Assembly: GCA_027034975.1 (NCBI GenBank)
Contig: JALVWQ010000034.1
Coordinates: 1 to 38,978, forward strand
DNA: 38,978 bases
Source of the DNA: Campylobacteraceae bacterium
GTDB taxonomy: Bacteria; Campylobacterota; Campylobacteria; Campylobacterales; Sulfurovaceae
Direction: 5' to 3'
A program made the position numbers and the translations under genes. Below, piece by piece: positions 3,791 to 38,700 of this stretch. Below the pieces are notes generated by a model. The model saw only the letters and a list, made by a program, of their open reading frames with translations, was not told the origin of the DNA and did no database searches. Within the stretch, counting starts at the first letter, position 1. The number at the start of each line of letters is the position of its first letter.

Positions 3791-3825
3791 TTAAGCCTAG
3801 AGCGAAGAGCACAGAGCTTATTGCT
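3791..3825. repeat. Degenerate heptad repeat array (GC-core class), 5 units
   Basis: GC dinucleotides recur exactly every 7 bp at 3795, 3802, 3809, 3816 and 3823, with mostly A/G before them. Read on + the unit is about RAGCNNA. The array starts 2 bp after the glnB stop. It belongs to the same class as the arrays at 5601 and 29500. Confidence 0.6.
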
Positions 3826-3829
3826 TTTG

Positions 3830-3844
3830 TGTGGCTTCGCCACA
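3830..3844 (+). terminator. Candidate glnB terminator hairpin
   Basis: TGTGGC and GCCACA form a 6-bp GC-rich stem around a TTC loop, 41 bp after the glnB stop. The bases after it are not a T-run (ATTCTAAATAAG). A second hairpin, CTTAAG-CAA-CTTAAG at 3864-3878, follows before the next gene. Confidence 0.45.
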
Positions 3845-5572: not shown

Positions 5573-5600
5573 ATAAAGAGATGCAATATAAAAACTCCTT

Positions 5601-5635
5601 TAGCTTACAGCTTTTTGCTTAAAGCTTTATGCTTA
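5601..5635. repeat. Degenerate heptad repeat array (GC-core class), 5 units
   Basis: GC dinucleotides recur exactly every 7 bp at 5603, 5610, 5617, 5624 and 5631. Read on the - strand from the adjacent gene the unit is about AAGCNNA. The last unit contains the stop codon (5633-5635) of the - strand hydrolase, so the array overlaps coding sequence by the stop. Confidence 0.65.
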
Positions 5636-7114: not shown

Positions 7115-7893
7115 TGTTCGAAAAACTCTACAACCCAAATCTACGAGAGCAAAAAAGAGAGGTTCTTACCCAAGATGGCACAACAACTCTCTACTCTGCC
7201 GAGTTTGACGAGTGCTACCACTCTACAAAAGATGGTGCCCTGCAAGAGAGCCTCAAAAAACATATTATCCCTGCTTCTAAGCTAACAGATAAAGAGTACT
7301 TAACAATACTAGATATCTGCTTTGGTTTGGGTTACAATACACTAACAACGCTTTACTACTACAAGCAAAACTACCCCAATAAAAAGCTACATATCATCTC
7401 ACCTGAACTCGATAGATCGTTAATAGAGTCTCTGCAAAATTTTAACTACCCAAAAGAGTTCGAGCAATTTAGAGATATTATTAAAGCCATTAGCCAAAAC
7501 TTCTTTTACGAAGACAAAAATATTAAAATAGAGGTACTCATTGGCGATGCAAGAGAGGCAATTAAAAGTATAGAGTCAAAAATAGACATCCTCTACCAAG
7601 ACGCCTTTAGCCCCAAAAAAAACCCTGCCCTCTGGAGCAAAGAGTACTTTGCCGATATAAAAAACATAGCAAGTAGCGATATAATAATAACAACCTACTC
7701 AAGTGCCACCCCAGTACGCCTAGCAATGTACGAAAACGGCTTTAAAATCTACAACCCACCAAAAAGCGAAGTAAGAAGCGGAACCATAGCCTCCCTAAAA
7801 GAGCTAAAGCTAGAAGAGATAGATATGGAGCTAAAGAAGCAGAGGAATCCGAATGCTAAAGCATTAAGTGATGGGGTTATTGGTGATTGGTAA
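7114..7893 (+). CDS. mnmD: tRNA (mnm5s2U34) methyltransferase, MnmC N-domain type (DUF752)
   Basis: A 259-residue SAM-dependent methyltransferase matching the N-terminal domain of MnmC without the FAD oxidase domain, as in stand-alone MnmD/MnmC2. It would methylate nm5(s2)U34 to mnm5(s2)U34 in tRNA wobble positions. Visible marks are the TQDGTTTLYSAEFDECYHS opening (family: DG..TL.S..FdD.YfS), the SAM-binding strand-loop ILDICFGLGYNTL near 65-77, and DAFSPKKNPALWS with its aspartate and proline, followed by TYSSATPVR. It is coupled to the upstream gene by TAATG. The last codons (GVIGDW and stop) are made of heptad repeat units that run on into the gap. Confidence 0.88.
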   Translation: MFEKLYNPNLREQKREVLTQDGTTTLYSAEFDECYHSTKDGALQESLKKHIIPASKLTDKEYLTILDICFGLGYNTLTTLYYYKQNYPNKKLHIISPELDRSLIESLQNFNYPKEFEQFRDIIKAISQNFFYEDKNIKIEVLIGDAREAIKSIESKIDILYQDAFSPKKNPALWSKEYFADIKNIASSDIIITTYSSATPVRLAMYENGFKIYNPPKSEVRSGTIASLKELKLEEIDMELKKQRNPNAKALSDGVIGDW

Positions 7894-7923
7894 TTAGTGT
7901 ATTGGTTTATTGATTATTCAATT
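7875..7923. repeat. Degenerate heptad repeat array (GGTNATT class) across the mnmD stop
   Basis: GGTTATT, GGTGATT and GGTAATT follow each other at 7875, 7882 and 7889, then AGTGTAT at 7896. After a 1-bp phase slip come further GGTTTATT/GATTATT-like units. The first three units encode the last residues and stop codon of mnmD. The sequence class matches the array at 38668 when that one is read on the - strand. Confidence 0.55.
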
Positions 7924-29116: not shown

Positions 29117-29473
29117 ATGTGTATATTTTGCAAAATTGTTGATGGAGAAATACCAAGTAACAAAGTCTTAGAGAATGAGAAGTTTTTAGCATTTCACGAT
29201 ATTAATCCTGCAGCTCCAATCCATATTTTAGTGATTCCAAAAGAGCATATAGAGTCATTTCAAGAGGCAGATAGCCAAACTATAGCAGAGATGACACCAT
29301 TTATCCAAGAGCTCTGTAGCAAGATAGGCTTAGATAAAAACGGCTATAGATTAATTACAAATATCGGAGAAGATGGTGGACAAGAGGTAAAACATCTCCA
29401 TATTCATGTGCTAGGTGGTGGAAAACTCATCTGGAAACACTACCAAGAGAGTGATCCACACAAAAATATCTAA
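29117..29473 (+). CDS. HIT-family nucleotide hydrolase/transferase
   Basis: 118 residues of the histidine triad superfamily, HINT branch, which usually hydrolyses AMP-lysine or AMP-NH2-type phosphoramidates. The triad reads HLHIHVLGG, with H93, H95 and H97, H95 being the nucleophile by family rule. The opening MCIFCKIVDGEIPSNKVLEN, with C2/C5, and HDINPAAPIHILVIPK match HinT proteins closely. It has its own extended -10 promoter and AAGGAG. A HIT gene next to pheS is also, as I recall, the arrangement in C. jejuni. The physiological substrate is unknown in most bacteria. Confidence 0.95.
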   Translation: MCIFCKIVDGEIPSNKVLENEKFLAFHDINPAAPIHILVIPKEHIESFQEADSQTIAEMTPFIQELCSKIGLDKNGYRLITNIGEDGGQEVKHLHIHVLGGGKLIWKHYQESDPHKNI

Positions 29474-29499
29474 CTATTTAGTAAGAACCAAAATCTAAT

Positions 29500-29547
29500 T
29501 AGCTCTGAGCTCTATGCTCTTAGCTTTTCGCTGTAAGCTTTAAGCCT
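29500..29547. repeat. Degenerate heptad repeat array (GC-core class), 7 units
   Basis: GC dinucleotides occur at 29502, 29509, 29516, 29523, 29530, 29537 and 29544, exactly 7 bp apart seven times, while the other positions vary. Read on the - strand from the rimP stop (29553) the unit is about RAGCNNA. It fills the gap between the convergent HIT gene and rimP. This is the clearest array of the family. Confidence 0.75.
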
Positions 29548-29552
29548 CTCCC

Positions 29553-29981
29553 TTACCACTCAAAATAGGTCTTAACAGTTCCTAACTCATTATAGTTATA
29601 ACTCTCTACACCCTCCTTGGTCTCAATAGAGATCCCCTCGTCAGTAGCTTCGATAAGTTTACCTTTACTCTTTTTACCGCCAAGAATTTTGAGCTTTACC
29701 TTTTCGCCTACAGAGTTTTTAAAGTGCTCTGGCTTTGTTAGTTTTCTCTCTATTCCTGGCGAACTTACTTCAAACCGGTACTCACCACTCACGGGAGGAG
29801 TAATATCTAACAGCGGCGAAATATCTCGCGAAATATCGGTACAAAGATCAATATCGACCCCACCATCTTTGACAATAGAGACACGGTAGATCGTTTCGCC
29901 ATTCTCTTGCACAATTTCGCTATCATACAATTTTGCTCCATGTGACTTTACAATCTTTTCAATAGAGTCAATAAGTGCCAC
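29553..29981 (-). CDS. rimP: Ribosome maturation factor RimP
   Basis: 142 residues; assists late assembly of the 30S subunit. The N-terminal alpha-beta domain contains VDIDLCTDISRDISPLLD and the hallmark SGEYRFEVSSPGIERKLTKP (family: YxLEVSSPGxxRPL) near 65-83. The C-terminal SH3-like barrel covers about 88-142. The start is GTG at 29981, overlapping the TAG stop of rbfA by one base (TAGTG), so it is coupled. It is the last gene of the lpxC-to-rimP string and ends 6 bp from a heptad array. The order infB-rbfA-rimP is reversed relative to E. coli (rimP first) and normal for Campylobacterota. Confidence 0.95.
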   Translation of the reverse strand: MALIDSIEKIVKSHGAKLYDSEIVQENGETIYRVSIVKDGGVDIDLCTDISRDISPLLDITPPVSGEYRFEVSSPGIERKLTKPEHFKNSVGEKVKLKILGGKKSKGKLIEATDEGISIETKEGVESYNYNELGTVKTYFEW

Positions 29982-38667: not shown

Positions 38668-38700
38668 ACTATTCACTATTGACTAATTACTATTCACTAA
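38668..38700. repeat. Degenerate heptad repeat array (ACTATTC class), 5 units
   Basis: ACT recurs exactly every 7 bp at 38668, 38675, 38682, 38689 and 38696, as ACTATTC, ACTATTG, ACTAATT, ACTATTC and ACTAA. Read on the - strand from the nadC stop (38703) the unit is AGTNAAT, the class also seen at 7875. It fills the 56-bp gap between nadC and the PhzF-like gene. Confidence 0.65.

Follow-up and report, generated by a model that had tools for sequence, protein, structure and literature searches.

A dispersed family of palindromic elements with heptad arms, candidate intercistronic stem-loops, in a genus of Campylobacterota

The heptad array that lies beside rimP in the stretch of Campylobacteraceae DNA analyzed here (38,978 nucleotides, hereafter the window) is best read as a relic solo arm belonging to a dispersed family of palindromic elements. 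We give about an even chance to the explanation that a formerly mobile family is today maintained as mRNA stem-loops between cistrons. The heptad-ladder element seems to be undescribed; a limited literature search of open-access full text found no earlier description of it.

As the original prediction had noticed, GC recurs beside rimP in exact steps of 7 bp, at 29502, 29509, 29516, 29523, 29530, 29537, and 29544, giving seven occurrences and six steps, and TRF reported the array as 29501-29545 with a period of 7, 6.4 copies, and 73% matches. Its predicted location between two convergent stop codons was confirmed by the ORF ends: the HIT gene stops at 29473 and rimP at 29553, and the array takes up about 45 of the 79 bp of the region between them (29474-29552). 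The sequence, the TRF result, and an ortholog in a relative define a solo right-type arm on the forward strand at 29501-29549, with seven GCs at lag 7 and the letters TTA GCTCTGA GCTCTAT GCTCTTA GCTTTTC GCTGTAA GCTTTAA GCC; read on the rimP strand, its unit is (NNAGAGC). The HIT-rimP gene order is common to the genome carrying this array (G000) and its closest relative (G001), and G001 has the same array exactly one 7-bp unit shorter. G011 is without a rimP array.

Runs of seven GCs at a given lag are expected only about 2e-5 times in the window. A pattern of five GCs at lag 7 matched five times in the window versus never in 100 dinucleotide-preserving shuffles, and runs of at least five GCs numbered three at lag 7 versus a single one over the remaining lags between 3 and 15 taken together. 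Pattern searches across the genome counted 72 five-GC matches per strand at lag 7, three at lag 8, and none for the reversed lag-7 pattern, so the lag-7 signal is genome-wide. The genome scan that had been suggested as a check thus came out in favor of phasing, and the proposed 7-base constraint, which is neither codon-phased nor that of a plain microsatellite, was supported as a property of a whole family and not a local accident. Most of the heptad arrays are intergenic.

Many of the arrays are inverted pairs made up of a left arm, a core, and a right arm. A complete element of about 130 bp has the form GC(NNAGAGC)4 - core - (GCTCTNN)4GC; a second unit type has AAAGC/GCTTT (NNAAAGC / GCTTTNN), and shorter complete versions span about 73-110 bp. 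Left arms are built from NNA[G/A]AGC and right arms from GCT[C/T]TNN; an arm has about four heptads, and most have four or five units. The cores align well and contain up to three small perfect hairpins, which are 97.7% paired in the alignment and show 24 double-change cells versus 8.9 after shuffling (0/500). The median z-score of the fold energy of 40 elements was -6.7. The unit type was equal in both arms for 322 of 347 paired units, compared to 193 expected, and matching was also found at the level of whole arms (Fisher p = 4.5e-9). Inside mixed arms, 34 of 35 units matched, but most of this is due to the outermost AAAGC/GCTTT pair, which is conserved, and the count was therefore left out of the evidence. 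Complementarity of NN between arms was at chance over 356 unit pairs (0.369 versus 0.364 +/- 0.016 after shuffling), and no covariation was detected in the NN columns of the element alignment. In their pairing potential and covariation, the folded arms form a ladder whose 5-bp rungs alternate with 2x2 gaps free of constraint. Since unit types match and NN is at chance, selection appears to maintain the rungs and to leave the gaps between them free. Palindrome repair by template switching was rejected for the arms, because copying one arm would also have made NN match.

Omega-type repressors bind heptads at 7-bp steps, and the elements might likewise be inverted arrays of binding sites in double-stranded DNA, with a protein sitting on AGAGC at 7-bp steps and the pairing of the arms incidental. 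The free NN beside a constrained 5-bp motif is consistent with this, as are the existence of solo arms and the presence of the same type in both arms, which is expected of a single type-specific protein. Duplex binding nevertheless leaves unexplained the covarying core hairpins and the fact that elements favor intercistronic gaps rather than promoter regions, and we consider it improbable. A separate indication of whether the structure acts as RNA came from non-Watson-Crick pairs. The sense-strand arms had 28 G-U versus 13 A-C pairs (p = 0.028), or 23:12 when counted by locus (p = 0.09), and the core hairpins showed no such asymmetry (9 G-U versus 8 A-C). The wobble test for an RNA role is thus suggestive for the arms and negative for the core, and with the arm signal weak by locus and that of the core absent, a DNA-level structure may hold instead.

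The positions of the elements were compared to those of neighboring genes, with gene calls based on a simple ORF rule. Complete elements with clear neighbors were between codirectional genes in 27 of 32 cases, between divergent genes in 5, and between convergent genes in none (versus the surrounding intergenic background, p = 0.012 for the codirectional count and p = 0.014 for the convergent one). In 64 of 91 elements, exactly one end had a start codon and its SD-like site at a distance of 14-48 nt, and in 55 of those 64 the distance was 14-28 nt; only 17% of random 130-bp intergenic placements had a start codon so positioned. On the other side of the element, the upstream stop usually lay at a distance of 0-24 bp. 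Neighbors include gltX, hemB, and trpD (identified by eye from their sequences), and the asymmetric core showed no preferred direction with respect to the flanking genes (13:8). In G000, the arrays found at convergent sites, that of rimP among them, were solo arms. A terminator reading was rejected for complete elements, most of which precede starts and none of which, among the 32 scored, is convergent. The earlier suggestion that the array is an RNA-binding repeat of the rimP 3' untranslated region in particular found no support, as the rimP site holds only a solo arm and complete elements lie upstream of start codons.

From these results, we infer past mobility, transcription, and an effect on mRNA decay or processing. 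The family would have spread like a miniature mobile element into short operon gaps, and the transcribed stem-loop would end just before the ribosome-binding site of the next gene and would be kept for that reason. Its most likely role would be cistron separation in the mRNA, through an exonuclease block or defined processing ends, which would allow independent decay or translation of the neighboring genes. At convergent sites such as HIT-rimP, pairing would not be maintained, and a solo arm would be left, subject to whole-heptad slippage.

Position near starts could also reflect insertion into short operon gaps plus SD avoidance. A purely selfish, MITE-like family would explain it in this way, with removal of the copies that hit a ribosome-binding site; its heptad arms would be terminal inverted repeats bound by a transposase, and arms would match because each subfamily (AGAGC or AAAGC) has its own enzyme. 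Like MITEs, the elements have terminal inverted repeats and are small, non-coding, and present in many copies. The dispersed copies fall into fixed size classes with a fixed arm length, their outermost AAAGC/GCTTT ends are conserved, and copy number ranges from none to many inside one genus. In one clean presence/absence case, a site holds a complete element in G001 and its G000 ortholog lacks it; as a possible target-site duplication, an AAACAC..GTGTTT hairpin flanks the G001 element on each side and occurs a single time in G000, but the loops differ. Counting against a selfish family, no gene was seen inside the arms, and no transposase among the Y1 and IntI families searched tracks the elements: Y1_Tnp occurs in G008 and G011, which have no elements, and the search did not find it in G001 (71% complete). 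In addition, NN is free in every copy, unlike in recently copied elements, none of the 32 complete elements scored has convergent neighbors, and AGAGC positions are constrained at fixed loci. We regard a purely selfish family as rather unlikely.

The constraint was seen by comparing G000 to G001, between which elements are mostly inherited in place, with differences that consist of whole 7-bp units, altered NN, and loss of a core hairpin. Orthologs differed at 2.1% of AGAGC positions, 8.1% of NN positions, and 7.5% of flanking positions (Fisher p = 0.006 and 7e-5), at loci that were picked by motif in both genomes, which biases the AGAGC value downward. Orthologs picked without the motif were more diverged, often with GC spacing kept. 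In some sister species, AGAGC-type elements occupy the sites before gltX, trpD, and hemB, and in others AAAGC-type elements with different cores do; these type switches could be independent insertions. In G003, G008, G011, and other species, at least one of these sites is just a short gap. Before gltX in G009 (L217), a heptad element has a TCATTCCCGCGAAAGCGGGAATCCA palindrome in place of its core, which may be another repeat nested in the arms. A GGGCACCTCTAATAAT-type repeat, possibly a MITE, was also observed within or near heptad elements (L036 5565-5722, L041, and L167).

The family could alternatively consist of plain heptamer simple-sequence repeats shaped by slippage and then drift, as had been suggested for the rimP array. 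The slippage part of that suggestion was borne out in part by the G001 array, one 7-bp unit shorter, and whole-heptad gains and losses between orthologs are of the same kind; heptamer repeats are also over-represented in many bacteria (PMC4692102). Drift does not fit the family: NN changes about 4 times as fast as AGAGC, and the two arms agree in unit type. Nor do simple repeats agree with arms of mostly four or five units, NN that varies within every array, a conserved core, and a fixed position before start codons. Slippage alone was rejected for complete elements, and as an account of the family we consider simple repeats very improbable. The simple-repeat reading may apply to solo arrays such as the GCTTT-type array GCTTACA GCTTTTT GCTTAAA GCTTTAT GC, found by TRF and pattern match between convergent ORFs at 5599-5635 of the window. 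The window also holds a half element, whose left-type arm GCCTAGA GCGAAGA GCACAGA GCTTATT GCTTTTG (3795-3829, forward strand, by pattern match) directly follows the stop of a P-II-like gene and is continued by the core mini-hairpin TGTGGCTTCGCCACA (3830-3844, forward strand), which belongs to a hairpin class defined by the alignment; no right arm was found for 3795-3844. Further period-7 tandem arrays with the units ACTATTC and GGTGATT lie at 38668-38699 and 7875-7906 of the window. A long array, (GCAGAAA)4(GCTTAAT)7, at L032 12328-12399 (G000:C10) is a nearly exact simple-sequence repeat, unlike the other arrays. On contig G000:C47, four solo right-type arms (L024 225-254, 3143-3172, 4632-4654, and 5882-5911) each lie directly upstream of a repeated TGGTATAATAG promoter-like stretch that starts an RHS-core-like C-terminal cassette, in the cassette array of a polymorphic-toxin-like locus.

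The strict AGAGC pattern was present in 7 of the 12 genomes of the genus sample, and a short-loop pattern was present in 10 of 150 genomes of the family, 8 of these 10 in the same genus. The same element occurs in public MAGs whose deposited names are Campylobacteraceae and Nitratifractor. Other phyla also have heptad arrays, but these were mostly near-exact tandem repeats without this element. In another genus, G014 has an apparently separate family of heptad-arm hairpins with the core AAATGATAGAATTCGTACAT (C1:20970, C16:98149, C52:8863, and C61:5171), and G039, from a different family of the order, has many nearly exact, STRR-like heptamer arrays (GCATTGG, GCAGTGA, and GCCCAAT).

ERIC/IRU and BIME/REP sequences of gammaproteobacteria are non-coding intergenic palindromes that are transcribed, occur in many copies, have no gene of their own, and can form stem-loops in mRNA, and ERIC resembles the heptad elements in length and location. 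The heptad elements are likewise non-coding, palindromic, multicopy, intergenic, and able to fold but differ in their heptad-array arms, free NN, two interchangeable unit types, and lack of a GTAG/CGTC tag; no transposase association was found for them among the Y1 and IntI families searched. The roles of REPs are covered in PMC3733652, which also reports GTAG- and CGTC-tagged REPs together in Sulfurovum sp. NBC37-1. Those are also small hairpins dispersed in an epsilonproteobacterial genome, but they measure 20-40 bp with an unpaired tag, compared to about 130 bp, heptad arms, and no tag here. GTAG at some H1 hairpins is a covarying stem base (GC:12, AU:6, columns 33/41) and not an invariant unpaired tag. 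A search of Rfam with 121 kb that included several elements gave no match above the gathering score.

That the elements are integron attC sites or REP/RAYT palindromes is scarcely credible. The core hairpins are superficially similar, Y1 transposases occur in several genomes, and intact integron integrases (TIGR02249, E about 1e-125) are present in G005 (G005:C121:11688-12632), G004 (G004:C45:490-1446), and G008 (G008:C159:2811-3758), with fragments in G003. Yet the element-bearing G000, G001, G006, and G009 have no intact integrase, the integrase-bearing G008 has no elements, no attC-type box pairs (RYYYAAC/GTTRRRY) were found near intI contigs, and the unpaired REP tag is lacking, and both readings were rejected by distribution and anatomy.

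STRRs are heptamers of cyanobacteria, and the original comparison with them held for unit length, dispersal, and intergenic position only. Head-to-tail near-identical units were not found, NN differing from unit to unit with only A[GA]AGC in common. TAACTGA heptamers of Beggiatoaceae (PMC4679880) and GGGAATC heptamers of Xanthomonas (PMC4692102) share with STRRs and the heptad elements 7-base units that are intergenic and dispersed and whose number varies by 7 bp. All three are near-identical direct repeats, whereas the heptad elements constrain only 5 of 7 bases and have inverted arm pairs around a structured core, with type matching between arms. On the features tested, the heptad elements are neither REP, attC, nor STRR.

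Intercistronic stem-loops set the stability of mRNA segments in operons, as at malE-malF (PMC5927463) and in the SRPS of clostridia (PMC8219983). The heptad elements similarly place a stable structure between codirectional operon genes and may work in the same way; malE-malF and SRPS are individual structures, whereas the heptad elements are one repeated family over many operons, with a putative role in decay. In their probable way of working, they would resemble both intercistronic stabilizing stem-loops and ERIC/BIME-like repeats. A bolder and doubtful extension, to which we attach little likelihood, is a genus-specific, genome-wide RNA "ladder" code of 5-bp rungs in a strict 7-nt register that would control many housekeeping operons segment by segment, with a dedicated protein reading the rung type (AGAGC or AAAGC) and ignoring the two spacer bases.

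These results add an intergenic repeat family of unusual architecture, in which five of every seven arm positions are paired and two are free. It offers a natural test of two questions: whether the structures formed by such repeats act in DNA or in RNA, and how, where genomes are compact, a once mobile element can be built into the architecture of operons.
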